Shown: positions 1,690 through 27,888 of the stretch, piece after piece | Position numbering within the stretch: the stretch's first letter is position 1 | Layout of the letters: each line of letters begins with the position of its first letter | Virus record (IMG/VR): IMGVR_UViG_3300031842_000026 | Span: 1 to 31,949 of that record | Strand: one strand, 5' to 3' | Length of the DNA: 31,949 bases | Origin: a virus | Translations under genes and position numbers: made by a program | The notes under the pieces: model-generated | The model's input: the letters and a program-made list of their open reading frames with translations, nothing else | The model's database searches: none | Told to the model about the DNA's origin: nothing

Positions 1690-1701
1690 GCGCATGAGTG
1701 C
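1690..1701 (+). promoter_or_regulatory. Late-gene motif copy A (GCGCATGAGTGC), giant virion gene
   Basis: This is one of four exact copies of a 12-mer in the window. With its flanks it matches copy D over 16 bases (AGCGCATGAGTGCGGC). It points toward the giant gene and ends 29 nt before its ATG, with AGGAG between. TATAAC lies 13 nt upstream of the motif block. No good -35 box is seen, so it is either a phage-specific promoter or a regulator site in the leader. Confidence 0.7.
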
Positions 1702-1730
1702 GGCATCCTTGATCTTTCAGGAGCCCACGC

Positions 1731-4700
1731 ATGCCCGAGAACCGTTTGATTGACGCAGGCTCAGAATGGGCCGATCCTTTCAATCTCTATAGCGGTAACA
1801 AAACTGCGCTTGGTGGCGAAGCGCCTGGGCTTTCACCCAAGACCGATACGTCCAGCTCTCTGCCAGCAGGCATGTCTCAGCGCGATTGGGACGACACGGT
1901 AAACACTGTCATTGCCGAGGCGGCAGGCGAGGGTGACGACGGCATGGCCGGTGTGGCGCATGTCATCCGCAACCGTTCCAATATCCGTGGGAAGTCCATT
2001 GGCGACGTCGTGCGCGAGCCGGATCAGTTCACCGGCTATGCCAGCCCGGGTGCAAAGACCGTTGAGGCGATGCGCGATCCTGCCATGCGCGCCCGCGCCG
2101 AAGGCATTCTGCGTAACGCGCTGACCAGCGATGGTCCCGATCCGACCGGCGGCGCTGACCACTATCATGCGACGTCGGTAAGCCCCGGCTGGGCGGGTGC
2201 CATGCCAGAGACGACACGCATCGGCCAGCACATCTATTACAATTCGAAGGGCGAGAAGAAGTCCGCTCCGTCGTCGGCGAGCGCCTTTGTGCCCGAAGAG
2301 GACCCGCTGGGCCTGTATGGTCCGAAAGGTCAGTTCCGCGACGTCTTGCAGGGCGATGAAGGCAAACCGGCAACGCAAAAGCAGCGCGACAACTCCATCT
2401 TGCTAACCAAATTGCAGGCCGGGAAGCCAGAAACCTATGTCACAGCTATGTCGGATGGCCTGCATGGCGGACTCACTGCGATGTTCAACGAGGCCCCCGA
2501 TTTCGTCCGCAACGGTCTAGACGTCTTGTCCGGTGCGCGCACACCAGAGCGTCAGGCGCAAATCATCGCTGATCATGCAGGAAAGTACGGCTTCGACCGC
2601 AAAGCGTGGGTGGCTGATGTTGAGCGCCTCGGCCCGGTAGAAGCTGGTAAGCAATGGCGTCCGACATTCCGCAAGCTGGGGCTTACGAAGAATATCGGCA
2701 TGCCTGGCGGATCGAAACACCAGCATGGCGAGGCAGCTGACCTTGGATGGAATGGAGGCGCATTCTCTAAGGCTCCTAAAGAAGTCGTCGAGTGGGTGCA
2801 TTCGAACGCTGGCCGATACGGGTTGGCGTTCCCGATGGCGCACGAAAATTGGCATATTGAGACTGCGGATGCTCGGAGCGGGGGGAATGCGAACCAGCCT
2901 GCAAAGCCGAAAGGCGTTGAGGTCAGCGATAACTTCAAGGCCAATGACCCGTTCGGCATGTACACCGGCCAGCCCAATCCATTCGAGCAGGACGCAGCGA
3001 ACGCGGCGGAGGATCGCCGCGCGGCAGAGACGCAGGCAGCGGTCGAAAAGGAGCGTCAGCGCGTGGTGGCCGATGTTGCCGCCAATAACGACGCGGTTGC
3101 CAGCCAGTTGGCAGGCCTCGAGGCAAAGACGCCTGGACGATATCAGGAGGTTCCCGAAAGCCAGCTCGCTACATGGCAGGAGCAGTGGGACAAGGATAAC
3201 CGATCGTCCGGTACGCCGGGCGATCTGGTGCGCCGTTGGGGTGCGGGCGCGGCGAACACCAGCCAGTCACTCGACAATCTCGGCAATCTGCTGCTGAACA
3301 AAATCCCGGGAGGATCGTACATCAACGATGCCCTGGACGGCATCGATCGCTGGATGGGCGGCGGCAGCACGGTTGCCGAGAAGCGGCAGGAGAGCATTGA
3401 CCGAGAGAACGCCACGCTTTCGCCAGAGGGTGCAGCGGCGCGCGACAAAAAATGGTGGGACGACGAGAACAAGACGCTGGGCCCGGCATGGACCGATCCG
3501 CGCAGTTATCTCGGCGTCATCGCTGAAAGCGGTCCTTCCACGGTTGCCAGCATGCTGCCATCCGGCATCATCGCCCGCGGTGCGTTCGTCACGACGTTGG
3601 CAGGCGGCGCATCGAGGGAGGTGGCAGCCGCAACCGCAGCAAAGACGGCCACGTTGGCAGGCGGCATCACCGAGGGCTTGCTGGGTGGTGCTGACGCGGC
3701 AAACTCTGTCCGCCAGAAGATCACCGAAATGCCGCGCGAGCAGCTCGTACAGTCCGACGCGGTCAAGCAGCTCATTGAGAGCGGCATGTCTGAGCAACAG
3801 GCTATCGACGCGGTCAGCAATGATGCGCAGACGCAGGCCCTCATCACCGCCGGCGTCGTCACCGGTGCTTTCGGCGGCATGGGCGACCGTGCATTGGCGA
3901 AGATCATTGCCGAGGGTGTCGAGGGTGGTGTTGCTCGTCGCGTCGCCACAGGCATGGCGCGTGGTGCTGTCGCTGAAGGCATCTTCGAAGAAGCGCCGCA
4001 GAGCGCAGGCCAGACCATTGCAGAGAACGCAGCGATGCGCCGCGTCAATCCAGATCAGGAGTTGACCGAAGGTCTCGGCGAATCCGTCGCATCTGGCATT
4101 GCAGCCGGTGGCGCCATGGGTGGCGGCATGGGTGGTGCTGGCGGTTTGGCTCGCCCTGCAGCTGGCCGTGCTGGCGTGGAACTCCCTCCGGCACAGCCCG
4201 AGCCAGACAATCGCGGGCCGCTTCGTCGTGCCGCCGATCACGGGCAGCAGCGCGAGACGGAGCGCGCCACCGCTGCGGATGCGGGTGCGCCGATCGATGG
4301 CAGGCCTGCCGCCAAGTCCACGGTGCGTGTTGAGGCCGAAGGCATTGAGCCTTTCATGGGCACGGTTGAAGGCTATGAGGGCGATGAAGCCGTCATCGTC
4401 GATTCCAGCAGCGGCGAAATGTTTCAGGTGCCGCTCGCGAACATAACCGAGATTGCACCGCCCGTTGGTGATTACCGATTCCCGGAAAAGGCCGACGACG
4501 GCATGCCGGAGCTGTCCGCAGATCCTGCGCTTGAACCGCTCCCTCCGATGGGGAGCGAAACCACGTCGGAGATGCCTCCGCGCAGCGAGGACATGGCAGC
4601 GACGGACAAGCGGCCAACGAGGCCGCAGCCAGGTCATCGCGTCATCGTCGATAGCCCCGAGGTGGGCAGGTTCCCGGCTCGCATCGAACGTTATGAGAAC

Positions 4701-7700
4701 GAAGGCGCCGAGGCTCTTGTTGTTGACGACAAGGGCAATCCGTTTCAGGTCCCGACGACGGCGCTCAAGGTCAGCAGCCTTACCCCGGCGCAGATCGAGG
4801 CGCAGGACCTCGAGCGCAATCCGCCGATCGAACGCGAGATTGGTGATGCCGGTCCTAACAGCCGAAAGATCGGCGACGCCACCGTTATCCTGCCCGACGA
4901 CAATCACGCTGCGCTATACGACCTCGCCCGCGAGCAGGTCATGGCAAAGCGGCTTGGCGGCACGTCTCAGGTCGATATCGATAGTGTTCTGCCCGCAGAG
5001 CGTAAGCGCCTTGCCGATGCGTTCGGCATAAAGGTGGCGGACCTCGCATCAATGGCGGACGATTACCGGTACCGCGCCGAGCGTGCAGCAAAGCAGGCAA
5101 AGTCGAAGCTGCCATTCAAGATGAACGCGGTTAACGACCGGCTGTTGAAGCAGAGGCAATCGGCCCGGGCGAAAGAGGCTGGCGAGCCTCTGGTGGAGCC
5201 CGCCGACGACGGCGCGGCGTGGTGGGACGTCGATCTGACAGCGCAGGACCGCAAGCGCGTGCTGGAACAAGCTGGCGTGAAACGCTCTGAGCGCTTGATG
5301 TGGCAGGGCATGACGCCTGGCATCAAGAAGAAGCTATTGGATGTGAGGGACGCGCAGCGCGCGGCAGCGGATGATGTTGCCACGCTGGCCGGCAAGGACG
5401 AAGTCTCCGCCAAGATGCGTGCGATCGCCGATGAGATTGGTCAAGACGACGGTGCTGTGTATCCCGACCACGCGGAAGCTGCCCAAGCGGATGCAGCGGC
5501 CAACGAGGCGGCCACGTCGCCCACCAATGACCTGCCTGAGCCCACAGCCGCGCAGAAGGAGGCCGGAAACTACAAGGTTGGCCGGTTGAAGCTGGGCGGC
5601 CTCGATATCTCGATCGAGAACCCGGCAGGCTCGCAGCGCAAGGGCGTGTCATCGTCGGGCAAGGCATGGTCCGTCGATATGAAGAGCCATTACGGCTACA
5701 TCCGCGGCACCGTCGGCCGGGATAAGGACCATATCGACGTATTCGTGCGGCCCGGTACCGAGACGCTTGACGATTCCTCGCCCGTCTTTGTCGTTGACCA
5801 GAAGGACCCGGCACGCGGTCGTTTTGATGAACACAAGGTTATGGCCGGTTTCGACAATGAGGCGCAGGCCCGCGCCGCCTATCTCGAAAACTACACCGCG
5901 GACTGGAAGGGGCTGGGTGATATCAGCCAGACCACACTCGGCGACTTCAAGACCTGGCTGAAATCCGGCAAAACGTCGGAGCCTTTCGCGCCGAAGTGGT
6001 TTGCATCACAGGACAAGGCCGACGGCTATATTGCCAGGAACAACATGGGCGAGACCCATGAGGTTGTGCAGCGTGGCAAACGCTTCGAGATATTGGAGCG
6101 TCGGCGAGACGTGCAGGATCGTCCATCCTCGCCGGCGAATGAGGGGCCGACCGTCACAGATCGTAATGGGCGTCGCTACCAGACCAAGGGCGAGAAACTG
6201 CCAGAGAAGGGCTTGGCTCCAGCAAATGTCGGCTCCGACGGCTTGGTCTATGTCGGCGAGATCGGCAGCCAGCATTTCGTCATCGCCGATAAGCATCACG
6301 ACGCTGCACCATTCGATAGCGTGGGCTTTGTCACGCCTGACGGTGATTTCCTTGATCGCAAGCAGGCGTTGGAATGGGTGAACACAAACGAGAGGCCTGT
6401 TCGCACTGGCTCCAATATGGGCGAGGAGCTGGATGCTCTCGATTACAGAGACCAAGTTCCGTCCGCTGTGAAGGCAGCGAAAGGTGGGACGAAAGCGGCA
6501 AAGGCGAAACCAGCCGTCAGCACCAACACCATTTTCACCGACGATGCCGCGGCGAAAGCGCGTGAGTTGCTTCGCAAGAAGCTTTCGGGCAATACGCTGA
6601 ATAGCGGCATCGACCCGGAGCTGTTGCAGGCCGGGATCACACTTGCAGGCTATCACATCGAGAAAGGCGCGCGCACCTTCGCTGCATATGCTTCGGCAAT
6701 GCTGGCGGACCTTGGCGAAGGCGCGCGCCCTTACCTCAAATCGTGGTATGCGGCCACCATCCTAGATCCTCGTTTCAGCGATATCGAAGGAATGACGCCG
6801 CTTGCGGAACTAACCGACATTGATATTGATGCCATCACTGCCCGACAGGCCGAGGCACTGGACGGTGCCGTTGATGGACGCGAAACGAGCGAAGGGCCGT
6901 TCGGCCCGATCCTGCGCGGATATGAGGGTAAATGGCGGGAGGCCGCGCTCGAGCTTGAGCGCCGGCAAACTGGCGATGCTATTGCTGCACTTTCGCATCC
7001 CGATGTGGGACCCATTGATCTGGTTTGGGGCACGGCCGGCAGTAACCAGAATAACGGTGCCGGTCTCGCAAAACTGATTGCATGGCACCCCGAGGTGCTG
7101 GATGACCTGCAAGGTTTCATCAATCGCCTTTCGGTTGACGAGAGGCGATCGACAAACCGGCGCATCCAGTTGTCGGATGCAAGCGGGAATGCGGGTGTGC
7201 GCCTCGATTTTGACGGAACGGCAAAGACGTGGTTGCTGACAGCTTATGAAACTGGGCAGCGGCGCACCGAGAGAAGTTCACGCCGTCTCGGTGACTTGTG
7301 GGGAGGCCGGGAAACTGCGCCATCCTCGCCGCTGGAAGAAAGTGCTGGTAAAAGCGCCAGGTCAGACACCGCTTCTACGGACCTGTCGGATGCCATCGCT
7401 AGCCGACAGACCAACACACAGGGAAATGTAGCACCGGGCTCAACCGATGTCCAATCCATCCCGCAGGCAGATGCGGCGAGGGCGGACCCCGATGAATATG
7501 ACCGCCCAAAGGCGAATAAGAGGCGAGACGAGGCCGTTGAAGGCACGCGCAACGATCTGGTGCACGTTGGGCTCCCGACCGCGCCGGAAGGCCCCGCCAT
7601 ATTTGATTGGGCCAGAGACACGATCAGCCGTTTCGGCAAAAAGGGTCACGAGTATCTGATGGCCGTCGATGACGATGGCGCAGTCGTCGAATTTGGCTCG

Positions 7701-10700
7701 GCGAACAGGAAAGCATCGACCGGCATCAACAACAAGCTACTCGGCGCGATGCTCAATCCTGACCGGCGTTTGGTCGTTTTTCATAACCATCCTCGCGGCG
7801 GCCCACTCAGTGCAGATGATATCGCCATGTTGGCTCTCCCCGGCATGCACTCAGTATGGTCGTTCACGCCGGCGGGTACTGACATGCGCGCGGCTCTAAC
7901 GCCCGAAGCAGAAGCCGCGCTATTCTCGACAACGGATCACTTCGCGAAAATGCGTGAGATTTCGACTGCAATAGCGGATGCCCGGAACGATGTAAGTGAT
8001 TTCCTCGCGGACAAAGTGAGAGAAGGAGCCGCTACGCCGCAACAGGCGGAGGAGGCGCACAATTTCGCGTCTGTCATGGTGGCCCATAGGGCCGGTCTGA
8101 TCGACATAACCTCAGAGAAGAATTACAATGTGGCCGCTATCGACGGCTTGAACAGCAGGCTGGACAGCGCGGCTGCTGCAATAAGGGAAAGCATCGACGA
8201 TGGTAAAGCCAACTATTCCGGTGAGAGGGTTTCACGACGATCCGCCCGCGACTTTCGCCACGTTGCAGAAGTGGCGGGACTGGCACGACGCGGTGAGCGA
8301 GTGGCCAGCGGACGATCCGGACCGGAAGGCCTCTCTGAAGCAGGCCCGTCAAATTATCAGGGAGAAGTCGGCGAGTGGCGCAAGCTCGTCCAGGACTTCT
8401 CAGACGTAAAAGCCACCAGAGAGAATATCGTTTCCCGGTTGCGCGGGGTCATCGCTGACAACAAATCCAGCATCCTCGCCACCGTGCCGCTGAATTACTT
8501 CCCGGAATTGGCCGGCGATAAAATCCCTGCGATCAACGATTATCTGCTCATCAAACGCAAGATGGACGCCTACAGGAGCGGCAGGCACGACGCCGCGGCC
8601 GAGGTAATGGACCGGTGGCGGAAATATATCAGCACCGGGTTCTTGGCCGTAGACAAGTCGAAGTCGCAAGCACTGGCAGACCTGATGCATGACGCAACGC
8701 TCGCCGGCATCGATCCTTCGTTGACGACAGAAGAAGAGCGAGCAAAACCCGGCTATGACAGGCTCCGTAAGAGATTTACGGCGATAGCCCCGATCGGGCA
8801 GAAACTCTTCACTGATGTGAGAGACGCTTATCGTGAGCAAGCCGACGAGCTGGATCGTCTGCTCCTCGACAACGTTCGCAAAGCGCAGGAGATGGCGAAA
8901 CAGCAGGCTGAGCGGGAATTCAAAGCCCGCCTCGCTGACATCGAGGCCAGTGATCTGAACCCGATCGACCGCCGCCGGCGCGTCGAGGACGCGCAAAACA
9001 AGCATAAGGCGGCGATGACGAAAAGTACGTGGGCATCCAAGGCGCGAATGACCCAGCTCCGCGTAATGTTTGAGAGTAACAGGGTTCCCGATCCGTATTT
9101 CCCGCTCGCACGTTTCGGCGATTATTTCGTTTCGGTTAAAACACCACGTAAGGACGAGGCGGGCGACATCGTCGGATATGACGTCTTGCACTTTTCGCGA
9201 CACGAGAAGGCAAGGGAGATGGAACAGGCGCTGGCGGAGCTGAGAAGCGAGTTTCCGGATGCCATGGTCACCAGTGGCATGCTGAGCAAGGGCGGCGAAC
9301 TCAAAAGCGCGATGGACCCTCGAGTCGTCGGAGAACTGGATAAACTGCTGGCATCCGCCAACGTCGGAGACGACATCCGAGATGCTTTGTATCAGCGCTG
9401 GCTGCAGACGATGCCGGACCTCTCTATGCGGAAACGTGCGATACACCGAAAAGGCATCGCCGGATACAATACTGACGCGTTCCGGGTATTCGCAAGCACT
9501 ACGTTTCACGCTGCCCATCAGATGGCACGATTGAAGTACGGGCTTGAGCTGCAGGAAAATGTCAACCTGGCAGAAGAACAGGCCAAGGCCGTCGACCATA
9601 ACCAAAAAGAAATGGCGCTGGTAAACGAGCTGTTCAAGCGCCACCAGTGGACGCTGAACCCCACCACCAAGCCGCTCACCAACTGGATCACCGGTGCAGC
9701 CTTTGTTTACTTCCTTGGCGCCACGCCGGCCGCAGCGCTGGTCAATGCCTCACAAACCATAATGGTGGGTGTGCCTGTGCTTTCGGCCAAGTTCGGATTC
9801 GCCAGATCCTCTTCCGAATTGGTGAAAGCGACCCGCGAATTCACCAACGCCGTGATCAAGGAGACGAAAACCGCGGAGGGACTTGGAGATTTCTTCAAGA
9901 ATGCGGGCGATCTGCGCAACGCATCCTCGCTAACCGGTGACGAGCGAGCCGCGATGGAGGCATTCTACGAATCTGGTCTGATTGATCGCACGCAAAGTCA
10001 TGATCTTGCGGCTGTGGGGGAGACCGGCACCAAGTATAACCCCGTGCGTGAGAAGGTAATGAACGTCGTCAGCTATGGCTTCCACAAGGTCGAGGTGTTC
10101 AACCGGACCGTGACTGCCATCGCCGCCTACAGGTTGGCCCGGGAGGCGGGGCAGTCGCACCTTGACGCTATCAACAGTGCTCATGATCTGACCTATAAGA
10201 CCCACTTCGATATGAGCAACAGCTCGCGTCCGCGTGTCACGCAAGGTGACATACCGCGACTTGCAACTATGTTTAGATCATTTCAAATCAACATGTTGTA
10301 CAGGCTTTTTAGAGATATACATCAATCTCTGAAAGGGGAGAGCAAACAGGTTCGCCGTGAGGCCCGGCTTCAATTGGCGGGCGTCACGGGTATGATGGCG
10401 TTGAACGCCGGTCTCACCGGCACCGTCGGTTACGGTCTGGCGATGGCGGCCGGCGGCATTCTCAAGTCAATGTTCGGGGATGATGATGACCCGCTGGATT
10501 TTGAAGAGCGGTTCCGCTCGGATATCCTAGAGTTACTCGGGCCCGAGCTGGGCGGGATCGTCCTAAAAGGTGTGCCGGGCCATTATCTCGGGATTGACCT
10601 CACCAGCCGTATCGGCATGCCCGATCTGTGGTGGCGAAGTGAATCGAGGGAGCTTAACAGCGACGATGCACTGAAGGAGTTCGTCTATCAGAACCTCGGC

Positions 10701-11297
10701 GCCGGTTTTGGCATTGTGCGTAACACGTATAACGGCGTCGACCTTGCGCTGCAGGGCAATGTCGAGCGGGGCTTTGAGACCGCGGCACCGAAATTTATTC
10801 GCGATGCGTTGCGAACCATACGATACACCAGAGACGGTGTGGAGAGCATCAGGGGCGATCAGGTCATAGCGCCTGATGACCTAAGCGCATGGAACCTCGC
10901 CAGTCAGGCAATGGGCTTCACACCTGCCAAGATCGCTGATGCCTACGAGGTGAACACAATCCTGCGGAACGCCGAGCAGCGGATCAAGGATCGCAAAAAA
11001 TCGATCGTCAATCGCTTCGCCAAGGCCGTGGAAGATGGGGATGACGAGGCACGCCAGAAGGCGTTGGATGACATCGGGGAGTACAATGCAGGGGCAGCCA
11101 CGCGTCTCGATCCCATCACAGCAAAAGGCTTGAAGCAGTCGCTTCGAATGCGCGTTCGGAACCGGCAGCGCTCCGTTGGCGGCGTGCTCATTCGGAATGA
11201 AGCTTTAAACCAGTATCTCCGCGGAGAGGTGGCCGGGGCGAGGGCGGCCGGTGACGACGACGATGATGACGATGTAGAAGAGAGCGGCGGCGAGTGA
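1731..11297 (+). CDS. Giant polyvalent virion protein (SleB-like, M15, InPase-like, JAB and PLxRFG domains)
   Basis: The protein has 3188 residues; ATG follows AGGAG at 7 nt. Domains in order: SleB-like cell-wall hydrolase (about 48-170, E63 in IAEAAGEGDDG); M15/VanY-type peptidase (about 245-385, SKHQHGEAAD at 328-337 and ENWH at 372-375); Ala/Gly-rich hydrophobic region (600-800); two similar modules of about 50 residues ending FQVP (864-911, 969-1017); inorganic-pyrophosphatase-like polyvalent domain (1280-1420, IENPAGSQRKG, DHIDVFV); a GYHIEKGARTFAAYA module (1614-1674); PBECR-like nuclease fold (1720-1837); JAB/MPN domain (1957-2067, H2018, H2020, S2027, D2030); PLxRFG motif at 2458-2463; helical C-terminus with hydrophobic segments near 2650-2690 and 2881-2918; acidic tail. 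Polyvalent proteins of this type are packaged in the head and ejected with DNA. The two hydrolases suggest local peptidoglycan opening and the later domains suggest effectors. No RNA polymerase motifs are seen. SleB, M15, JAB and PLxRFG are firm; InPase is good; PBECR is tentative. Confidence 0.88.
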   Translation: MPENRLIDAGSEWADPFNLYSGNKTALGGEAPGLSPKTDTSSSLPAGMSQRDWDDTVNTVIAEAAGEGDDGMAGVAHVIRNRSNIRGKSIGDVVREPDQFTGYASPGAKTVEAMRDPAMRARAEGILRNALTSDGPDPTGGADHYHATSVSPGWAGAMPETTRIGQHIYYNSKGEKKSAPSSASAFVPEEDPLGLYGPKGQFRDVLQGDEGKPATQKQRDNSILLTKLQAGKPETYVTAMSDGLHGGLTAMFNEAPDFVRNGLDVLSGARTPERQAQIIADHAGKYGFDRKAWVADVERLGPVEAGKQWRPTFRKLGLTKNIGMPGGSKHQHGEAADLGWNGGAFSKAPKEVVEWVHSNAGRYGLAFPMAHENWHIETADARSGGNANQPAKPKGVEVSDNFKANDPFGMYTGQPNPFEQDAANAAEDRRAAETQAAVEKERQRVVADVAANNDAVASQLAGLEAKTPGRYQEVPESQLATWQEQWDKDNRSSGTPGDLVRRWGAGAANTSQSLDNLGNLLLNKIPGGSYINDALDGIDRWMGGGSTVAEKRQESIDRENATLSPEGAAARDKKWWDDENKTLGPAWTDPRSYLGVIAESGPSTVASMLPSGIIARGAFVTTLAGGASREVAAATAAKTATLAGGITEGLLGGADAANSVRQKITEMPREQLVQSDAVKQLIESGMSEQQAIDAVSNDAQTQALITAGVVTGAFGGMGDRALAKIIAEGVEGGVARRVATGMARGAVAEGIFEEAPQSAGQTIAENAAMRRVNPDQELTEGLGESVASGIAAGGAMGGGMGGAGGLARPAAGRAGVELPPAQPEPDNRGPLRRAADHGQQRETERATAADAGAPIDGRPAAKSTVRVEAEGIEPFMGTVEGYEGDEAVIVDSSSGEMFQVPLANITEIAPPVGDYRFPEKADDGMPELSADPALEPLPPMGSETTSEMPPRSEDMAATDKRPTRPQPGHRVIVDSPEVGRFPARIERYENEGAEALVVDDKGNPFQVPTTALKVSSLTPAQIEAQDLERNPPIEREIGDAGPNSRKIGDATVILPDDNHAALYDLAREQVMAKRLGGTSQVDIDSVLPAERKRLADAFGIKVADLASMADDYRYRAERAAKQAKSKLPFKMNAVNDRLLKQRQSARAKEAGEPLVEPADDGAAWWDVDLTAQDRKRVLEQAGVKRSERLMWQGMTPGIKKKLLDVRDAQRAAADDVATLAGKDEVSAKMRAIADEIGQDDGAVYPDHAEAAQADAAANEAATSPTNDLPEPTAAQKEAGNYKVGRLKLGGLDISIENPAGSQRKGVSSSGKAWSVDMKSHYGYIRGTVGRDKDHIDVFVRPGTETLDDSSPVFVVDQKDPARGRFDEHKVMAGFDNEAQARAAYLENYTADWKGLGDISQTTLGDFKTWLKSGKTSEPFAPKWFASQDKADGYIARNNMGETHEVVQRGKRFEILERRRDVQDRPSSPANEGPTVTDRNGRRYQTKGEKLPEKGLAPANVGSDGLVYVGEIGSQHFVIADKHHDAAPFDSVGFVTPDGDFLDRKQALEWVNTNERPVRTGSNMGEELDALDYRDQVPSAVKAAKGGTKAAKAKPAVSTNTIFTDDAAAKARELLRKKLSGNTLNSGIDPELLQAGITLAGYHIEKGARTFAAYASAMLADLGEGARPYLKSWYAATILDPRFSDIEGMTPLAELTDIDIDAITARQAEALDGAVDGRETSEGPFGPILRGYEGKWREAALELERRQTGDAIAALSHPDVGPIDLVWGTAGSNQNNGAGLAKLIAWHPEVLDDLQGFINRLSVDERRSTNRRIQLSDASGNAGVRLDFDGTAKTWLLTAYETGQRRTERSSRRLGDLWGGRETAPSSPLEESAGKSARSDTASTDLSDAIASRQTNTQGNVAPGSTDVQSIPQADAARADPDEYDRPKANKRRDEAVEGTRNDLVHVGLPTAPEGPAIFDWARDTISRFGKKGHEYLMAVDDDGAVVEFGSANRKASTGINNKLLGAMLNPDRRLVVFHNHPRGGPLSADDIAMLALPGMHSVWSFTPAGTDMRAALTPEAEAALFSTTDHFAKMREISTAIADARNDVSDFLADKVREGAATPQQAEEAHNFASVMVAHRAGLIDITSEKNYNVAAIDGLNSRLDSAAAAIRESIDDGKANYSGERVSRRSARDFRHVAEVAGLARRGERVASGRSGPEGLSEAGPSNYQGEVGEWRKLVQDFSDVKATRENIVSRLRGVIADNKSSILATVPLNYFPELAGDKIPAINDYLLIKRKMDAYRSGRHDAAAEVMDRWRKYISTGFLAVDKSKSQALADLMHDATLAGIDPSLTTEEERAKPGYDRLRKRFTAIAPIGQKLFTDVRDAYREQADELDRLLLDNVRKAQEMAKQQAEREFKARLADIEASDLNPIDRRRRVEDAQNKHKAAMTKSTWASKARMTQLRVMFESNRVPDPYFPLARFGDYFVSVKTPRKDEAGDIVGYDVLHFSRHEKAREMEQALAELRSEFPDAMVTSGMLSKGGELKSAMDPRVVGELDKLLASANVGDDIRDALYQRWLQTMPDLSMRKRAIHRKGIAGYNTDAFRVFASTTFHAAHQMARLKYGLELQENVNLAEEQAKAVDHNQKEMALVNELFKRHQWTLNPTTKPLTNWITGAAFVYFLGATPAAALVNASQTIMVGVPVLSAKFGFARSSSELVKATREFTNAVIKETKTAEGLGDFFKNAGDLRNASSLTGDERAAMEAFYESGLIDRTQSHDLAAVGETGTKYNPVREKVMNVVSYGFHKVEVFNRTVTAIAAYRLAREAGQSHLDAINSAHDLTYKTHFDMSNSSRPRVTQGDIPRLATMFRSFQINMLYRLFRDIHQSLKGESKQVRREARLQLAGVTGMMALNAGLTGTVGYGLAMAAGGILKSMFGDDDDPLDFEERFRSDILELLGPELGGIVLKGVPGHYLGIDLTSRIGMPDLWWRSESRELNSDDALKEFVYQNLGAGFGIVRNTYNGVDLALQGNVERGFETAAPKFIRDALRTIRYTRDGVESIRGDQVIAPDDLSAWNLASQAMGFTPAKIADAYEVNTILRNAEQRIKDRKKSIVNRFAKAVEDGDDEARQKALDDIGEYNAGAATRLDPITAKGLKQSLRMRVRNRQRSVGGVLIRNEALNQYLRGEVAGARAAGDDDDDDDVEESGGE
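8200..8409 (+). CDS. Possible nested small gene inside the giant gene (+1 frame)
   Basis: Sixty-nine codons run from ATG 8200, with GGGAAAG about 8 nt upstream, to TAA 8407-8409. They lie one base out of phase with the giant gene. The product is protein-like: acidic, helical and Trp-containing (LQKWRDWHDAVSEWPADD, RKASLKQARQII). Third positions in this frame are mostly G or C, whereas the giant frame over the same bases drops to about half GC3 and reads as an Arg/Ser/Gly-rich linker. It may be a true overlapping gene, a relic absorbed into the giant gene, or a chance frame. I know no homologue. Confidence 0.3.
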   Translation: MVKPTIPVRGFHDDPPATFATLQKWRDWHDAVSEWPADDPDRKASLKQARQIIREKSASGASSSRTSQT

Positions 11298-13848: not shown

Positions 13849-13849
13849 C

Positions 13850-16519: not shown

Positions 16520-17827
16520 TCACGGATTGAGGCCATAAGCCCTCTGGCGTGCGCGCAATTGCTCCTGAACGACCTTTGGCCACTGCCATTCGGGCACGCC
16601 GGCTTGATTTAAACCGTTAGCGACGTCTTCGACGGACGCGCCGTTCTCCAAGGCGGCGTTTGCCTGTGCCAAAGCTTGATCGGTAGATGCGGCCGATATG
16701 CCGGGGGCATCCTTCGCGGCGGCGCGTTGCAGGTCCTCGATACGGCGTCTTACGCCCTCCTGTGCCCGAGCCGGGACGCCCGGGATAGGCTTTTCGCCGG
16801 ATGGTGCCGGCGTGGGCTGGGATGCTTCTTGTTTAGCTGGCGCGGATGAGGGCGCAGCGATGGCCGATGGATCGACAATTTTCCCGGTGGTATTGTCGAA
16901 CAAAACCTTTTTCTCAGCTCGCGATGGTGCTCCGCTGGGAACGCCTGGCATGGCATCGCCTCGGATCAGCGACATTCTGTCGTTGATCAGCTTTTCCTGC
17001 TGGTCACGGGGCATGTTATACAACGTCGTCTTGCCCAGCTCGTCGACATGCTCTTTTTCGAGCGACTTGATCGCAGCCGCCCGATCCTTTGTGGGGCCAA
17101 CGCCGAACTGCTGGTCAATTTTCTTTTTCTTTTCGTATGTGTCCAGTTCGGTGGCCTGTTTGCGGGCCTCCTCCTGCTGTTTCGCCCATGCATTCGCTGC
17201 GTCGGGATTGAAGTTGCCTGCAACGAACCCCGGGATGTCTTTAACGTCGAATGTCTGTGTGATGGGTTCCCCATCGGCCCGATTGATTTGTATCGTGACG
17301 CCCGGGTTGCCGGTATACGGATTGGTGCCCTGCGCTACCTTTTTGAAGTTGTAGCCTTCTCCGAAGTAACCAGGAGTTTGAGCACCCTTGTTCAACCACT
17401 CAAGCCCACCGTCAACGTCCCCCATCGTAAACAGGCGAAGCGAGTTCATGAATGCACGTGAGCCAGTTTTTGTGTTCTCGTCATCGGCCCACTTTTGGAA
17501 TTTTGTTGCTCCTTCGATGTCACCATTCAACTGAAGCTGTTTGATGCGGGGCTGGACGAAGCCTTTGTTGTAGGCGTTGCCGAAATCATCGTCGGTGAGT
17601 ATTCCTGATTTCACCTTTTGGTCGAAGTCGGCCTGAAAGTCCTTCGCCAGCTTGTCGGAAGCGTTCCGCTGTTCCAGCGCACGGTTATATTCGACGTCCT
17701 CGCGTTGCTGCAGAACCTTCTTCCGCTCGGCGTCATCCCGCGCAAGATCTGCGTCGGCCCAATCCTGCTTGACCTTTTGGGCCTTCTCGAATCCGTCCAT
17801 AAATCCACCGAGACCAATTCCCAACAT
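16520..17827 (-). CDS. Probable internal virion (core or ejection) protein
   Basis: The product has 435 residues. The N-terminal 100 residues are strongly charged and helical (FEKAQKVKQDWADADLARDD, AERKKVLQQRED), a middle part (150-210) is beta-like, a second charged helix follows (WAKQQEEARKQATELDTYEK), and a Pro/Ala-rich linker (about 315-355) leads to a helical C-terminus. It is soluble, without signal or membrane segments. AAGGAG before ATG 17827 overlaps the end of the upstream gene, so the two are coupled. Being last in the minus-strand structural unit, behind the nozzle-like and S74 genes, fits an inner-core or ejection protein as in podoviruses. No named family is recognised. Confidence 0.6.
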   Translation of the reverse strand: MLGIGLGGFMDGFEKAQKVKQDWADADLARDDAERKKVLQQREDVEYNRALEQRNASDKLAKDFQADFDQKVKSGILTDDDFGNAYNKGFVQPRIKQLQLNGDIEGATKFQKWADDENTKTGSRAFMNSLRLFTMGDVDGGLEWLNKGAQTPGYFGEGYNFKKVAQGTNPYTGNPGVTIQINRADGEPITQTFDVKDIPGFVAGNFNPDAANAWAKQQEEARKQATELDTYEKKKKIDQQFGVGPTKDRAAAIKSLEKEHVDELGKTTLYNMPRDQQEKLINDRMSLIRGDAMPGVPSGAPSRAEKKVLFDNTTGKIVDPSAIAAPSSAPAKQEASQPTPAPSGEKPIPGVPARAQEGVRRRIEDLQRAAAKDAPGISAASTDQALAQANAALENGASVEDVANGLNQAGVPEWQWPKVVQEQLRARQRAYGLNP

Positions 17828-17831: not shown

Positions 17832-18992
17832 TTACTCCTTCACGGGTTTGCGTTTGACGGACGGTACAGACGCTTTCGGGGTGGCAGGTCCGACGCCGCC
17901 AAGCCCAATCGCCTCGATTGTTGCGTCCAGCTTCTTGTCGAGGTCCTGCACCGCCTTCATGGTGATGCCGATGGCATCCTGCGCAGCGATGTTTTTCCCA
18001 TCGCCCAGCCCCGTCTGTTCGGTGAAATCCTGAGCGTAGGTGCCGATATGCCGACCTTCATCGGCGACACCCTGTTTGTAGTCCCAAGCCTCGACAGGCA
18101 TCTCGCGCACAGCTTCGAGCGCGGTGCCGTCGTCGATCGGCTCCTTATTCTCTTTCGCTTCCTCGTCGGACTTGAAGATCAAACCTGCGATTCCTCCGAG
18201 GGCGCCGCCAATGCCCTTGGCGTTCTGCGCATTGAGATCTTGCTGGGCCTTCCATGCCTGAATTTGGAGCCCGTACTGCTGGTTCAAACTCGATGCCTGT
18301 CCGGCATAACCTTGCATCGCCCCACTATACCCTGAGTTCATGATATTGGATGCAGCGAGTGCCTGGCTATTCGATGCTTGTGACCCTGATAAAGCGGTAC
18401 CACTCGCCGCGACGCTGCCACCGGCACCCGCGGCGGCTTGGGCCGGGAGACCCTTGCCGAGATTGACCACGTCGGCTTTGAGCGCGAGGCCTTTGTCACG
18501 CACCGCCTGCCGCGATGTATTGGCCGCGCCAGCCTCCGCCAGCGTCGTTCCGAGGTCGGATGCGGCCTGCACCCCGGCAAAGCGTCCGCTGCCCGGTGTG
18601 ACGCCCATGGATGCGTTTGCGCGCTCCGTTGCGGCCCGGTTGTTTGCCGCTGCGGTCTGGACATCGGCGCGCGCCTCTGCCGCTGCCTCGGCCTGCCGCT
18701 CCTCAGTTGCGTAATTGGAAGCCTCGTCAATAAACTGATCTTCGATGGGCTTATAGACAGAGTTATATCGCTCCCGATCCTCGCGCGACCACTTGGCCTG
18801 ATCCGTGGCTAGACCCAGCTGCTGCTCCGTCACGCGATTGGTAAGATCGTCGAGAACTTTTTGACGCTCTTCAGACGTAGCAAACGCATCTTTGGCAAAA
18901 CTCAGCCAATCCTCGCCGGTCTGCGCCTGTTTAAGTGCCGCTGCGCCGATCTGTGGATCGGGAGCCGGTGCAGAAGTGCTGCCTTTGCCCAT
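17832..18992 (-). CDS. Virion protein with C-terminal S74-type chaperone domain
   Basis: The product has 386 residues. The first 270 or so are Ala/Gln/Gly/Ser-rich and helical (TAAANNRAATERANASMG, AASNIMNSGYSGAMQGYAG). Residues about 273-360 look like the S74 intramolecular chaperone: KSDEEAKENKEPI with the Ser and Lys placed as in self-cleaving domains, then ALEAVREMPVEAWDYK, RHIGTYAQDF and a final helix (AIGITMKAVQDLDKKLDA). S74 domains assemble trimeric fibres and then cut themselves off. ATG 18992 has AGAGG at 7 nt; a longer start at 19031 would swallow the late-gene motif at 19018-19029. It begins its own late unit and is followed by the core-protein gene. The body is not typical of a beta-helical fibre. 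Confidence 0.72.
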   Translation of the reverse strand: MGKGSTSAPAPDPQIGAAALKQAQTGEDWLSFAKDAFATSEERQKVLDDLTNRVTEQQLGLATDQAKWSREDRERYNSVYKPIEDQFIDEASNYATEERQAEAAAEARADVQTAAANNRAATERANASMGVTPGSGRFAGVQAASDLGTTLAEAGAANTSRQAVRDKGLALKADVVNLGKGLPAQAAAGAGGSVAASGTALSGSQASNSQALAASNIMNSGYSGAMQGYAGQASSLNQQYGLQIQAWKAQQDLNAQNAKGIGGALGGIAGLIFKSDEEAKENKEPIDDGTALEAVREMPVEAWDYKQGVADEGRHIGTYAQDFTEQTGLGDGKNIAAQDAIGITMKAVQDLDKKLDATIEAIGLGGVGPATPKASVPSVKRKPVKE

Positions 18993-19017
18993 GATGCTAC
19001 CTCTTTGATGACGAGAT

Positions 19018-19029
19018 GCACTCATGCGC
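19018..19029 (-). promoter_or_regulatory. Late-gene motif copy B, S74/core-protein unit
   Basis: GCGCATGAGTGC on the minus strand, ending 25 nt before ATG 18992. It shares AACACAT at the same spacing (five bases before the core) with copy D. TATAAC is just upstream. It lies in the 47 nt gap behind the GNAT gene, which suggests a fresh transcription start inside the structural block. Confidence 0.7.
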
Positions 19030-19039
19030 AATGCATGTG

Positions 19040-19489
19040 TTATAGGGTCTTTTTGCTAACTTTTCCAGCGAAGCGTTCCGGCAGCCAGCGGCATTCGCGC
19101 CGGAGCATGCCATAGACGATCAAATCCTCGCCTTGTTCGCCGGCCTCGCGCAAAATGCCCTCTCGCTGGAACCCAAAATGCTCGTTAAAGCGGATCGCAT
19201 CGGCGTTGTTGACCGAGACGAATGAGTTGAGGCGGGGATAGTCGAGCTGAATAAAAGGGTAAGCGAAAACCCTGATGATGAGTTCCCGTGTGATCCATTT
19301 CCGGCCGCCGTCGGAAACAACCGACACCCAGCACCCCGTTGTGGTGAAACTGTCGAATACTATAACGCCGTGCAGCCCTTCATCGGATTGAACGCCGATC
19401 GCTGCGGCGTCGTCGCGGAACTTGAGGCCTCCGCGGTCCGTCGCCCATGCGAGCATTTCGTCGGTAGGGCTGTAGACGACTTGTTTCAA
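19040..19489 (-). CDS. GNAT-family N-acetyltransferase
   Basis: The product has 149 residues. The C-terminal half carries GNAT features: SFVSVNNADAIRFNEHFGFQ, with the N-x-x-A-x-x-x-x-E-x-x-G-F motif near acetyl-CoA, then REGILREAGEQGEDLIVYGM. Enzymes of this type move acetyl groups to amines; similar small acetyltransferases occur among the structural genes of many podoviruses, where their target is unknown. It starts with TTG 19489, whose bases overlap the previous stop as TTGA, giving coupling; no ATG lies before the conserved N-terminus. Its stop is followed by a late-gene motif for the next unit. Confidence 0.8.
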   Translation of the reverse strand: MKQVVYSPTDEMLAWATDRGGLKFRDDAAAIGVQSDEGLHGVIVFDSFTTTGCWVSVVSDGGRKWITRELIIRVFAYPFIQLDYPRLNSFVSVNNADAIRFNEHFGFQREGILREAGEQGEDLIVYGMLRRECRWLPERFAGKVSKKTL

Positions 19490-23853: not shown

Positions 23854-24269
23854 CAGGTCACCGCAATATCGAGGTCGCCGGCATGGATGATGCACTCGTC
23901 GGTGGGGTTGAGTGTCTTCGGTGCGGTGAGGGCGCCCTGAAAAATCATCTCGCCAGCGAGCGGGTCAGTCCAGATCGCAAAGTGCGTCACGGTGATAGGG
24001 TCTGCGCCGTTGTGTGGCGCGTAGAGCAGCTCTTTGGCGTTCTCGCTCGCCTTGCCCGCGGCAGCCGAAAAGCCTGATGCGACGGCCCCGCCCAGCGTCG
24101 CATCGAGGCGGGTGTACGCGGGCCATGCCGCCGTGGTCACTTCCGACGCGCCACCGTTACCCGGATCAGCGGTGTGAAGCGAGACGTATAGCCGCGCAGG
24201 CGCCACCGCAGCAACTCCGCGCAGGAAATGGTTCAGAATGGCATTTGCGGCATAGGTGCTTGCTGGCAT
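23853..24269 (-). CDS. Phage tail-fibre-like beta protein
   Basis: The product has 138 residues. The segments LYVSLHTADPGNGGASEV, AYTRLDATLGG, ITVTHFAIWTDPLAGEMIF and QGALTAPKTLNPTDECIIHA follow a pattern common in a family of small phage proteins usually labelled tail fibre: a Leu-Tyr-x-Ser-Leu-His-Thr strand, an x-V-T-H-F-x-I-W strand and a GAL strand before a basic hairpin. It is soluble and without signal. It is joined by one-base stop/start overlaps to both neighbours, which suggests fixed stoichiometry with the adaptor-like and repeat proteins. Likely structural; exact site unknown. Confidence 0.7.
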   Translation of the reverse strand: MPASTYAANAILNHFLRGVAAVAPARLYVSLHTADPGNGGASEVTTAAWPAYTRLDATLGGAVASGFSAAAGKASENAKELLYAPHNGADPITVTHFAIWTDPLAGEMIFQGALTAPKTLNPTDECIIHAGDLDIAVT

Positions 24270-24895: not shown

Positions 24896-25596
24896 CACCG
24901 CCTCCTGTTCGGATTGGACGCGGCCTCGCCCTGCACCTTGATGCCAAGGGCGGTGGCAAAGGTCTGGTAATAGGTCATCGCTTTGGTGGGGTCGCCGGCG
25001 ATGTCATCCTTGGAAAAGGCCTTGAACAGCACATAGTCGATCAGCGGCACGGTGTAGGGTTCGGGAATGCCGATCTCCACGTCCCATGCCTCGAGCTTTT
25101 CGACGTCCTTGTTCGGGGTCGGCGTGACCTTGGCAGGCAGATAGGAAATCGCGATCTCGACGACGCCGTACCCATCATTGCCGGGATAGCAATTGAATTC
25201 CAGCGGCACGTTCTCGTCGAAAACGACCTGGCGCACTTCCTTGCTGAAAGGGACGTAGGCCGGATTGTGCCAGTTTGGCTCGTGCGAATCGAGCATGGCG
25301 CGCGCAGCGGTGCGGATCGCCCTACCGCCGAGGTTCTTCACCGTGTCGATGATGTTCCGGTTCACGCCAAGGAGCTGGAGCGGGGTGACGCTGTCGAGCG
25401 TTTCGGGGATCTTCTGGTACGTGCCTTGCTCGAGGGGGAGCTGAGCCGTTTTCGCCGATGCCGATGGCTTGGCGAGGATGATGGCCTTGACCGCATCATT
25501 GATGCAGTCGGCAAGCTCGGAAAGCGGCCAACGAATGTTGTCTTCGTCCAACAGCAGGACGCTGGCGCGCTTCATCACTTCACTTGCCTTCGGCAT
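24895..25596 (-). CDS. Phage adaptor-like protein (DUF6682-like)
   Basis: The product has 233 residues. The beginning (ASEVMKRASVLLLDEDNIRW, PLSELADCINDAVKAIIL) fits the phage adaptor pattern in which a first helix and a Leu-Leu-Asp-Glu/Asp-x-x-x-x-Arg-Trp motif precede an I-N-D-A helix. A beta-rich centre (VPLEFNCYPGNDGYGVVEIA) and a helical end (YYQTFATALGIKV) complete it. Such proteins make the ring beneath the portal. The start lies three bases behind the acidic gene's stop. The family match comes from memory of the motif. Confidence 0.7.
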   Translation of the reverse strand: MPKASEVMKRASVLLLDEDNIRWPLSELADCINDAVKAIILAKPSASAKTAQLPLEQGTYQKIPETLDSVTPLQLLGVNRNIIDTVKNLGGRAIRTAARAMLDSHEPNWHNPAYVPFSKEVRQVVFDENVPLEFNCYPGNDGYGVVEIAISYLPAKVTPTPNKDVEKLEAWDVEIGIPEPYTVPLIDYVLFKAFSKDDIAGDPTKAMTYYQTFATALGIKVQGEAASNPNRRR

Positions 25597-25599
25597 GGC

Positions 25600-26070
25600 T
25601 TACTTGCTCTTGCTGGTTGCCTTTTTGGCGGGAGCGGCTACGGGTGCCTGCTCGGGCTGCTGGTTCGTTTCAGCATTTCCTTGAGCAGCATCTGCCGCAC
25701 CGGATGCGCTTTCTTCGCCGGTGGGCTGCTCGCCGCCGGTCTGTTCACTGACATTGACGGCAGTGGTTTCGTCTCCAGTGTTGGAACCGTCATCATCGTC
25801 TGCGTCGTCGCCAGTGCCTTCACCGGAGCCAGTGCCTTCACTTTCGCCGCTGCCGCCCTGTGCGGACAGAAATGCGGGGATTTCGTCGTCGGGCGGAGGC
25901 GGATCGAGAGGCACTTCGCGGTAATGCTGAACGTTGAGGAAGAGCGAGCGATGCAGAACGCTGTTCACCTCGTTGACGAAACGGCCATGGGCGTCTCGGT
26001 CGAAGCTATAGGTGATGCCACCGATCGTCTGTTCCGTCGCACCCAGCGTGCATTCAATGACAGTCTTCAT
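25600..26070 (-). CDS. Acidic phage protein with disordered tail
   Basis: The product has 156 residues. Residues 1-65 form a small folded region (VIECTLGATEQTIGGITYSF, RFVNEVNSVLHRSLFLNV). The rest is a low-complexity acidic stretch (GTGDDADDDDGSNTGDE) rich in Gly, Ser, Glu, Gln and Ala, closing with a basic PAKKATSKSK. AAGGAG precedes the ATG. Between the cement-like and adaptor-like genes such proteins are usually minor structural or assembly proteins; the acidic part could act as a DNA mimic or scaffold-like spacer. No family is recognised. It starts behind a strong terminator, so its expression depends on read-through or an undetected promoter. Confidence 0.6.
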   Translation of the reverse strand: MKTVIECTLGATEQTIGGITYSFDRDAHGRFVNEVNSVLHRSLFLNVQHYREVPLDPPPPDDEIPAFLSAQGGSGESEGTGSGEGTGDDADDDDGSNTGDETTAVNVSEQTGGEQPTGEESASGAADAAQGNAETNQQPEQAPVAAPAKKATSKSK

Positions 26071-26082
26071 AATCCACTCCTT

Positions 26083-26110
26083 GAAAGAAAAAGGGGCTTG
26101 GCAGCCCCTT
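26083..26110 (-). terminator. Intrinsic terminator after the cement-like gene
   Basis: On the minus strand AAGGGGCT-gcca-AGCCCCTT (26110-26091) forms an 8 bp stem followed by a T-rich run (TTTTTCTTTC). It lies just after the stop at 26133 and before the acidic gene, so it should lower expression of the genes behind it. Confidence 0.85.
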
Positions 26111-26132
26111 GTCGTAGCCAGCCTTGAGGGGC

Positions 26133-26594
26133 CTACTCGCTGGTGAGGAAGACGGTGAGACCGATCACGCCGGCTTGGAAGGTTGCTGCCGCCGTGGTGA
26201 ATTTCACGCCGATGCCGCGATCGATGCTCGACTGCGTTGTGCGGTACGCAGTCTTGAGCGTCGGACGCGCGACACCGCCTGCCTGAGCCAGATTGGAGCC
26301 GGAGAAGAATTCAGCGCCGCAGGTGCGGGCGTTGTCTTCAAGGCCAAATGCCGCGCTCATGATGCCGACGTCGAAAAGAACGGCGGGAGCGCCGTTGCTG
26401 TCGAGGTCATCCATGTCGAGGATAATTTCCGCAACGCGGCAGTTGGACGGGATGCAGGCCAGCTCAAGGATATCGCCAACGGCAGGTACGCTGGTGAGCT
26501 GGTGGGAGAAGCGGATGGCAACAGCTTCGCCAGCCGTGGACGGATAGGAAAGGGGTTCGGTCCCTTTGGCATATTTGCTCAGAATGAGCGTCAT
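26133..26594 (-). CDS. Probable capsid decoration (cement) protein
   Basis: The product has 153 residues. It is beta-rich and Gly/Ala-rich (SHQLTSVPAVGDILELACIP, VAEIILDMDDLDSNGAPAVL, FDVGIMSAAFGLEDN, TFQAGVIGLTVFLTSE), with no charged helices, signal or membrane segment. This size and composition, directly after the major capsid gene and flanked by its own terminators, is the hallmark of a capsid-stabilising or head-decoration protein in phages with N4-gp56-type heads. AAAGGA lies upstream of the ATG. Its separation by terminators on both sides suggests a high, independently set level. The family name cannot be given with certainty. Confidence 0.7.
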   Translation of the reverse strand: MTLILSKYAKGTEPLSYPSTAGEAVAIRFSHQLTSVPAVGDILELACIPSNCRVAEIILDMDDLDSNGAPAVLFDVGIMSAAFGLEDNARTCGAEFFSGSNLAQAGGVARPTLKTAYRTTQSSIDRGIGVKFTTAAATFQAGVIGLTVFLTSE

Positions 26595-26635
26595 GAGCGT
26601 GTTCCTTTGGAGTTCTGGTCGCGATGGCGAAGCTG

Positions 26636-26660
26636 GAAAAGCCCGGGGCGAGCCCCGGGC
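26636..26660 (-). terminator. Intrinsic terminator after the major capsid gene
   Basis: On the minus strand GCCCGGGGC-tc-GCCCCGGGC (26660-26641) is followed by TTTTCC. It lies 6 nt behind the capsid stop codon. The very GC-rich stem should stop or slow polymerase between the capsid and cement genes. Confidence 0.8.
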
Positions 26661-26666
26661 AGGTCA

Positions 26667-27764
26667 TCAGGCGTTGGGGTCTTTCGATGCGGTGTCGATC
26701 GAAATCACGCCGTAGTCGCGGTTGTTGAAGCGCGTCTTCTTGACGCCAGCGATCACACCGGAAGCAACCACAGGCTCGTTGCCATGGTCCTTGGTCTCTT
26801 CGGTCCAAGTGTAGCGGAAGCCGCCAGCCGAACCGAAGGCGATCACGCCGCCCTGACGTCCCAAGAACAGGGCGCGGCCTGCAGCGACGTTACCGCCGGC
26901 GCCATAGTCGCCGAAGCGGATTGCCCATTCGTGGCTGTGAAGGACCGTGTTGCCAATCATGCCGAGACCGCCCTTGAAGATCGGGCTTGCCCGTCCTTCG
27001 GCTGCTGCTGCGGCCTTCTGGATTTCCAGCCAGCCGCCCTGATCCTTGTTGCGCAGGTCGAATTCCTGGAACGGGTTCATGACGCAAACGTAGTGCGCTT
27101 CGCCGTTGATCATGATCGGCATCATGTTGGCGTTCTTGGGGTCCTTGGCCGACATCATGCGGGCCTTGGTCTGAGCGCGCTCGATCACGCCGCGGGACAT
27201 GATATCCGCAGAGTCGAGGTCTGCTTTTCCGGTAGCATCGCCGCCGTAGAGGATGTGATCCGCGTCGGGAGCTTCGATCGGGTTCTCGGCGTGACCCGCC
27301 CAGGCCGTCGTCTCGATGAAGTCTTCATTGATGCCGCGTGCGCCGGACATGTAGATGAAAATCATCTGGTCGTTGAATTTCGACCAATAGTCGGAGAGAC
27401 GGTTTTTGCCGATTTGGCGCATGTTGTGAGCGGTGCGCTTGCGGCTCATCTTGCCACCGGCAGAGACGCCGTGACGCATCTGATCAATCTTGATCTGGTC
27501 AGACGCAAAGCGAAGGTTTTCTTCTTTGCCTTCGAGGCGGTTATCACCGTAGGTGGGCCGATTGCGAAGCTGCACCGACAAATCGAAGCTGATCTGGTCG
27601 CCTGCTTCCGACTCGAGGTCGGTAAGACGCTGAATCGCGTATTCATCGGACGTGCCGATAAACTTACGGTCCCAATAGCTTTTCTTGGTGATGTCGATGA
27701 AGAGCGCGCCAGACCACTTTTTCTGCGCTTTCGGATCGCCAAAGGCAACCACAGTCTTGGTCAT
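26667..27764 (-). CDS. N4-gp56 family major capsid protein
   Basis: The product has 365 residues. Visible family features are the N-terminal WSGALFIDITKKSYWDRKFI, then SEAGDQISFDLSVQLRNRP, YGDNRLEGKEENLRFASDQI, MRHGVSAGGKMSRKRTAHNM and IGKNRLSDYWSKFNDQM: the order of an HK97-fold N4-gp56-type shell protein. It builds the icosahedral head. ATG 27764 has GGAG at 9 nt; the longer frame from 27797 would start inside the late motif at 27794-27805. It is first in the long minus-strand structural unit, preceded by that motif and followed by a GC-rich terminator. The expected portal and scaffold genes upstream are missing here; lysis genes on the other strand stand in their place. Confidence 0.9.
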   Translation of the reverse strand: MTKTVVAFGDPKAQKKWSGALFIDITKKSYWDRKFIGTSDEYAIQRLTDLESEAGDQISFDLSVQLRNRPTYGDNRLEGKEENLRFASDQIKIDQMRHGVSAGGKMSRKRTAHNMRQIGKNRLSDYWSKFNDQMIFIYMSGARGINEDFIETTAWAGHAENPIEAPDADHILYGGDATGKADLDSADIMSRGVIERAQTKARMMSAKDPKNANMMPIMINGEAHYVCVMNPFQEFDLRNKDQGGWLEIQKAAAAAEGRASPIFKGGLGMIGNTVLHSHEWAIRFGDYGAGGNVAAGRALFLGRQGGVIAFGSAGGFRYTWTEETKDHGNEPVVASGVIAGVKKTRFNNRDYGVISIDTASKDPNA

Positions 27765-27793
27765 GAGTGATGTCTCCGGTTCAGGATCAAACA

Positions 27794-27805
27794 GCACTCA
27801 TGCGC
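27794..27805 (-). promoter_or_regulatory. Late-gene motif copy C, major capsid unit
   Basis: GCGCATGAGTGC on the minus strand, ending 29 nt before the capsid ATG. TATTTA lies a few bases upstream. It stands back-to-back with copy D in the 148 bp gap between the capsid and endolysin genes, so the gap looks like a divergent late control region. Confidence 0.72.
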
Positions 27806-27876
27806 ATCTGCTCTCTAAATACTGGATTTGGCGGATTGTTGCAACAACTGGCGCATGATATTGAAACACATCGCTA

Positions 27877-27888
27877 GCGCATGAGTGC
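27877..27888 (+). promoter_or_regulatory. Late-gene motif copy D, lysis unit
   Basis: GCGCATGAGTGC ends 24 nt before the endolysin ATG. It matches copy A over 16 bases and copy B in the upstream AACACAT at identical spacing. A shorter relative, GCGCATGA, is at 27851-27858. Confidence 0.72.

Follow-up and report, generated by a model that had tools for sequence, protein, structure and literature searches.

The 12-mer that is repeated ahead of late genes in this viral DNA is most likely a small RNA hairpin that opens the late messages and forms part of a two-state RNA switch, and not a promoter. Conservation of the hairpin, partial covariation of its stem, its sense-only placement and -10-like boxes upstream of it across the family were found by computation. 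A co-varying long-range complementarity, a CsrA-family gene in the relatives and an association between GGA in the loop and Arg44 in the protein were computed as well. The reading that we consider reasonably probable is a post-transcriptional late-gene switch run by the phage's own CsrA-like protein, which would probably be a translational activator. Each late unit would be transcribed from a host-type promoter, with a presumed start a few bases upstream of the element, and the message would open with GCGC-AUGA-GUGC. In the default fold of the late message, the loop and the 3' arm would pair with the Shine-Dalgarno (SD) and start-codon region, and the start would be hidden. A CsrA/RsmA-family protein, encoded after the portal genes and presumably carried by the window's own phage too, would recognize the loop of the short 5' hairpin as the RNA emerges. 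The bound hairpin would block the long helix and most likely free the start codon, which would be activation and not repression. Translation of the giant protein, the S74 protein, the capsid protein and the endolysin would thus be turned on only after the upstream portal operon has been expressed.

The window, meaning the whole stretch of DNA analysed, is an IMG/VR record of 31,949 bases. It is related to Agrobacterium phage Atu_ph08 (Roslyckyvirus), which covers 39% of its first 25 kb (at 80.9%), and its capsid is related to those of Sinorhizobium phage PBC5 and the Bcep22-like phages. The initial annotation had reported four exact copies of GCGCATGAGTGC, ending 29, 25, 29 and 24 nt 5' of an ATG at copies A to D. 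Both the copies and the distances were confirmed; the window holds no other exact copy, and none of 100 dinucleotide shuffles contained any. The 16-base match of copies A and D and the AACACAT common to B and D are likewise visible. A scan of the window with up to two mismatches found 10 sites vs 7.07 expected, which is no excess. With up to one mismatch, the 12-mer was present in 28 of 36 related records, and a reversed control pattern gave 3 matches in total. The closest near-complete relatives carry 4-5 copies at equivalent places; the fifth copy, outside the window, lies ahead of a gene of about 104 aa. The proposal that four late units, those of the giant protein, the S74 protein, the capsid and lysis, form one set holds, and the set is conserved in the relatives. 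The sites and their genes are as follows.

1690-1701 (+): site A, ahead of the giant DarB-like gene (ATG 1731); the leader is predicted to carry the 12-nt hairpin GCGC-AUGA-GUGC
1731-11297 (+): giant DarB-like protein, 3188 aa (PHROG 10089 and others; Pfam domains)
19018-19029 (-): site B, ahead of the S74 virion protein gene (ATG 18992), with the same predicted leader hairpin
17832-18992 (-): S74 (chaperone of endosialidase) virion structural protein (PHROG 8003, PF13884)
27794-27805 (-): site C, ahead of the major capsid gene (ATG 27764), with the same predicted leader hairpin
26667-27764 (-): N4-gp56-type major capsid protein, 365 aa (PHROG 334, PF13252; the queries started two codons earlier than ATG 27764)
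27877-27888 (+): site D, ahead of the endolysin gene (ATG 27913), with the same predicted leader hairpin
27913-28665 (+): endolysin, glycosyl hydrolase 108, GH108 (PHROG 315, PF05838)

The giant protein of the window (1731-11297), with 3188 aa, begins MPENRL, and the Atu_ph08 counterpart of 4877 aa begins MPIVIGLG. An exact 12-mer, read as GCGC-ATG-AGTGC, also spans what looks like the start codon of an integrase-like gene, recognized by eye, in PBC5 (G019, 961-972, +), and likewise in G016 and G017 (285-296, +). The loop AUGA would include the start codon at these sites, and direct control by the CsrA-like protein is possible there.

The hairpin forms in the capsid leaders of the relatives as GCGC-ANGA-GYGC or GCGC-ANGAN-GYGC, and as GGUGC-AUGGAY-GCGCC in loci L072 and L073. 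Of 78 related loci, 72 carry a relaxed form ahead of the capsid gene, and it was absent from the capsid loci L058, L059, L069, L071, L078 and L081. The relaxed form also occurs by chance in 82 of 1309 windows taken elsewhere in the loci (about 6%), so that chance may account for a few of the 72. The strict hairpin is present in 56 of 69 distinct capsid leaders, in 3 of the 1309 windows elsewhere and in 2 of 1380 shuffles; on the antisense strand it occurs in none of the 69 capsid leaders. The hairpin-locus sets comprised 64 of 80 loci of one set, 12 of 15 of a second, POI1126 and DC1. Loci L008-L013, L016, L019-L021, L026, L027, L034, L040, L042 and L076 were left out of the 80-locus set, mostly as near-duplicates or for having little upstream DNA.

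The relaxed-form scan needs at least three pairs and two of the CGC bases and so biases pair counts; covariation was therefore measured with anchors that ignore the outer stem. In this test, pair 4 (p 0.0015) and pair 6 (28 of 41 vs 16.3 expected) covaried, pair 3 did so weakly (0.03) and pair 5 showed no covariation. The stem is kept despite base changes as ACGC/GUGU in L047, CCGC/GUGG in L044 and GGUGC/GCGCC in L072 and L073. A conserved G-U wobble and a loop length of 4-6 are further properties of the family. The loop in the window is AUGA, without GGA, and does not match the CsrA-type pattern of ANGGAX on a stem; GGA is found in other members of the family. At the sites the Rfam covariance models gave no relevant match, with one weak unrelated match in the window at E<=5.

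A genome-wide scan of 24 sequences returned 128 hairpin sites, 91 of them followed by an ORF. Ten control loops in the same scan returned 31-129 sites each, 9-27 of them followed by an ORF. Position is diagnostic here, and the total by itself is not. Atu_ph08-like phages and POI1126 carry the hairpin ahead of several late units, each with a separate leader, and in the Bcep22-like records it is mainly found at the capsid leader among the matches listed. In POI1126, the annotated start of the S74 gene (gp26, 18530) lies inside the hairpin; the ATG at 18563, which follows an SD, agrees better with the relatives.

Boxes resembling a bacterial -10 element lie upstream of all four copies in the window.

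1671-1676 (+): -10-like box TATAAC (5/6 bases), unit A, 13 nt before the element; a start would be expected near 1683
19039-19044 (-): -10-like box TATAAC (5/6 bases), unit B, 9 nt before the element
27816-27821 (-): weak -10-like box TATTTA (3/6), unit C, 10 nt before the element and 17 nt after TTGCAA (27839-27844)
27859-27864 (+): weak -10-like box TATTGA (3/6), unit D, 12 nt before the element, 17 nt after TTGTTG (27836-27841) and with TG one base upstream

The context of every copy in the relatives shows TATAA-like boxes 5' of many of them, at variable distance. Boxes that agree with TATAAT at 5 or more of its 6 positions occur in 54 of 127 leader clusters, vs a mean of 14.75 and a largest value of 26 in 200 shuffles, and vs 5 in the next stretch upstream of the same clusters. 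The first base of these boxes peaks 19-21 nt 5' of the hairpin. With the usual -10 geometry, transcription would start about 8 nt before the element. With the boxes upstream of it, the element is expected within the 5' leader RNA of presumed transcripts; the boxes argue well for this in the family and less so at units C and D taken alone.

The initial annotation had instead suggested a promoter for a phage polymerase or a DNA site for a late activator, and this part of it found no support. As DNA, the 12-mer would be bound by a phage polymerase, an activator or a repressor. The exact repetition before late genes, the half-palindromic sequence and the weak boxes at C and D fit such a site. It is nevertheless very improbable, since the boxes lie upstream of the element with variable spacing across the family, the strict form is never antisense, and a partly covarying stem with a conserved G-U wobble and a loop of 4-6 bases is maintained. 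The complementarity of the loop and 3' arm to the gene's own ribosome-binding site and start codon, described below, makes sense in RNA. A search for a T7-type polymerase (PF00940) was negative in all 18 records and equally silent in its control, and hence uninformative. An antitermination site of the nut/boxB type, close to the 5' end of the late transcripts, is less probable still and hardly to be expected: a small hairpin with a conserved loop near the expected start of late messages would suit it, but the start-codon complementarity would be left unexplained and the protein family that co-occurs is CsrA. As a separate observation, TTGTTGCAACAA at 27836-27847 of the window is a perfect palindrome, located where the -35 elements of the two divergent promoters, C and D, would be. 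GTTTGC...GCAAAC-like palindromes lie at the same region in other relatives, and the palindrome is perhaps a transcriptional operator.

The two-state RNA switch is suggested by pairing between the hairpin and the start of its own gene. Bases of the loop and 3' arm are complements of bases in the SD/start region, as in CAUGAGUG/CACUCAUG of window unit C, CAUGACGUGCU/AGCACGUCAUG of L032 and GGAAGUGCUC/GAGCACUUCC of L067. In the window, the partner segments are the following.

1720-1734 (+): SD/start segment of unit A, complementary to site A and buried at an MFE of -22.8 kcal/mol; duplex p 0.035 vs shuffles
18989-19003 (-): complement of site B in the SD/start segment of unit B; MFE -24.6; duplex p 0.01
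27762-27769 (-): CACTCATG around the capsid start codon, a perfect 8-bp complement of CATGAGTG in site C
27902-27915 (+): complement of site D in unit D, the SD/start segment GGAGCGCACCCATG; MFE -19.3; duplex better than 200 of 200 shuffles

Leader L005, which is identical to the capsid leader of the window, has a long-pairing p of 0.005. For 53 distinct capsid leaders, the cognate duplex had a mean of -15.1 kcal/mol vs -10.2 (sd 3.6) for non-cognate partners, and the lowest mean among 5000 partner permutations was -11.8. Compared with shuffled partners individually, 35 of the 53 reached p<=0.05 and 25 reached p<=0.01, while 18 missed p<=0.05. The pairing is shared by the other units at p<=0.05: giant protein 13/16, endolysin 12/13 and S74 11/14. 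The 104-aa unit of the relatives has the hairpin, and long pairing was found in 0 of 4. All five leaders of POI1126 paired (p<=0.027). LKA5 carries three exact GCGCAGGAGTGC, with long pairing at the first only and none at the other two. The leaders of Skulduggery and LASTA pair well, and those of Itty13 (0.10) and Mwe-JY25 (0.17) are above 0.05. The S74 site of PBC5 has GUGU and its partner has ACAC.

In the predicted MFE folds of window leaders A-D, only 1, 3, 1 and 4 of the 16 SD-AUG bases are unpaired, so the start would be buried. When the short hairpin is kept, 10, 7, 10 and 11 of the 16 are unpaired, the least at B. Leader stability vs shuffles gave z values of -2.4, -4.6, -2.5 and -1.6 for A-D. 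The short hairpin and the long helix share strands, and each leader therefore has two mutually exclusive predicted states.

The same hairpin and the same CsrA-like protein could also repress. A dimer would then bridge the hairpin and the SD and delay or limit late translation, in the manner of E. coli CsrA at glgC. We regard this as unlikely, though it is the foremost of the alternatives. Repression is the prevalent CsrA mode as described in PMC7652899, and the hairpin-to-SD distances in the window fall within the bridging range of 10-63 nt given there. The long-range helix, on the other hand, would hide the start without any protein and would compete with protein binding, which favours activation, and many loops lack GGA.

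The candidate for the trans-acting component of the activating switch is a divergent CsrA/RsmA-family gene, which the relatives encode after the portal gene or before the capsid gene. It is seen in close relatives and lies outside the window, a 31.9-kb fragment. Among 50 related records, PF02599 had a match at E<=0.001 in 29, and 11 exceeded the curated cut-off. An iterated profile collected 79 ORFs in the loci searched, with overlapping loci counted apart; Atu_ph08 gp17, annotated as hypothetical and located after the portal gene, is among the matches. Of 20 members, 15 matched Pfam CsrA at E<=0.1 and 18 matched PHROG 8397 (CsrA-like). The Atu-type protein alone scores 20.8 bits, below the Pfam cut-off of 27 bits, and a profile of the CsrA-like proteins matches RsmE 2jpp at 4.8e-11. 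The AlphaFold model of the protein has a pLDDT of 79.8. The best 15 Foldseek matches are all of the CsrA family (prob 0.85-1.00), with a best E of 0.011 and none <=0.001. The first eight VIA structure matches are all CsrA (Z 6.2 to 2.7), and the next, unrelated one is at 2.7. The sequence-model matches together with the modelled CsrA fold place the putative trans-acting protein of the relatives in the CsrA/RsmA family. LKA5 (KC900378, a Pseudomonas Hollowayvirus) has a second CsrA-like match at 17099-17233 (-) besides LKA5_047.

The gene and the hairpin occur together. A profile search of 16 named records found the csrA-like gene in six, and Mwe-JY25 gave a weak match (18 bits). Counting Mwe-JY25, seven named phages carry the gene; six of them show the hairpin at the capsid leader, including a UGGAU loop read by eye in Skulduggery, and LKA5 shows it at other places. 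In nine distant relatives that lack the gene, the capsid leader has no hairpin; in several of the gene-less phages the capsid gene follows close behind its neighbour, so the missing leader hairpin is less telling there. Three pattern matches elsewhere in the gene-less RHph_Y1_10 and phiR18 were taken as chance.

The loop sequence is further associated with the protein. The test covered 54 of 72 hairpin loci, those with a paired csrA-like ORF, and the gene scan did not include loci L213-L227. In these 54 phages, a loop with GGA goes with Arg at the RsmE Arg44 position in 18 of 21 cases, and a loop without GGA in 2 of 33. The review PMC7652899 names L4 and R44 as critical in CsrA. Arg44 occurs in 20 of the 54 proteins, 18 of them with GGA loops, and the closest relatives of the window have Ile. 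Parsimony on the capsid tree gave 7 changes of GGA and 6 of Arg44. The phi of 0.80 was reached in none of 2000 independent tree simulations (95th percentile 0.45), and Arg44 has the highest phi among 230 residue states, the runner-up being 0.64. Related phages are not independent, and the tree was used in this test only. Phages with an AUGA loop have neither GGA in the loop nor Arg44 in the protein, and binding by that pair is suggested only by association.

These results also bear on a switch that needs no CsrA-like protein, in which co-transcriptional folding, ribosome traffic or host factors would decide and the csrA-like gene would target host messages, e.g. CRISPR-Cas. According to PMC8450108, phage RsmA is highly similar to the bacterial protein, correlates with csrA-bearing hosts and is proposed to exploit host CRISPR regulation. 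The association of the loop with residue 44 and the co-occurrence of gene and hairpin speak against this, and we hold it to be improbable. Moreover, an ordinary CsrA match (E<=0.001) was present in none of 8 host genomes, in a search that also missed the divergent phage genes and speaks of ordinary CsrA only; a host Csr network is therefore unlikely in those hosts.

The proposed activation resembles E. coli ymdA and P. aeruginosa phz2, where binding of CsrA/RsmA to the leader exposes a sequestered Shine-Dalgarno sequence (PMC7652899, which gives phz2 as a hypothesis). In contrast to these, the proposed regulator and all of its targets are phage genes, the same element stands in 4-5 late leaders, the hairpin to be bound itself provides the start-hiding strand, and many phage loops are ANGA(N) without GGA. 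Com of phage Mu is similar in that a phage protein binds a short hairpin beside a translation inhibition structure and activates translation of the phage gene mom (PMC6483171). Com is a zinc-finger protein with mom as the described target, whereas the candidate here is of the CsrA family and would control several operons including capsid and endolysin. The loops AUGGAU of L072 and AUGGAC of L073 sit directly on the stem like the ANGGAX hexaloops of RsmE, the high-affinity form described in PMC4005645; unlike them, most phage loops are ANGA tetraloops or ANGAN pentaloops, with AUGA in the window.

The gene itself has been seen before. The Bcep22-like phages JC1 (gp47; PMC9144972), CSP3 (orf23) and DC1 (gp46 of the record) and also LASTA have this same gene, in each case immediately ahead of the capsid gene. 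It was called a moron in JC1 (PMC9144972) and noted only as an RNA-binding homologue in CSP3, with no phage mRNA target proposed in the portions of these accounts consulted. Phage csrA genes have been described even in phages whose hosts have no csrA of their own (PMC7366521), and they have been proposed as a tool against CRISPR-Cas (PMC8450108). Among the matches listed in the literature search, no report ties phage CsrA to phage leaders or messages.

If the switch is real, phage csrA genes would gain a direct function through cognate sites in late messages of the phage itself. The timing of phage late genes is known to rely on antitermination, activators, phage polymerases and sigma factors; a translational master switch would join these modes. 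We give a slightly better than even chance to the broader claim that in a whole clade of tailed phages, with hosts among the Alpha-, Beta- and Gammaproteobacteria, a CsrA-family protein of the phage is the master post-transcriptional switch of late expression, acting through bistable leaders. Loop and protein specificity would have co-evolved in this clade, including a recoded pair of ANGA loop and a residue 44 other than Arg, unlike the published CsrA consensus. The natural variants of loop and residue 44 would be a data set for shifts in CsrA RNA specificity. JC1 gp47 is reported from purified virions on the basis of one peptide (PMC9144972), and if packaged, the protein could act at once in a new infection.
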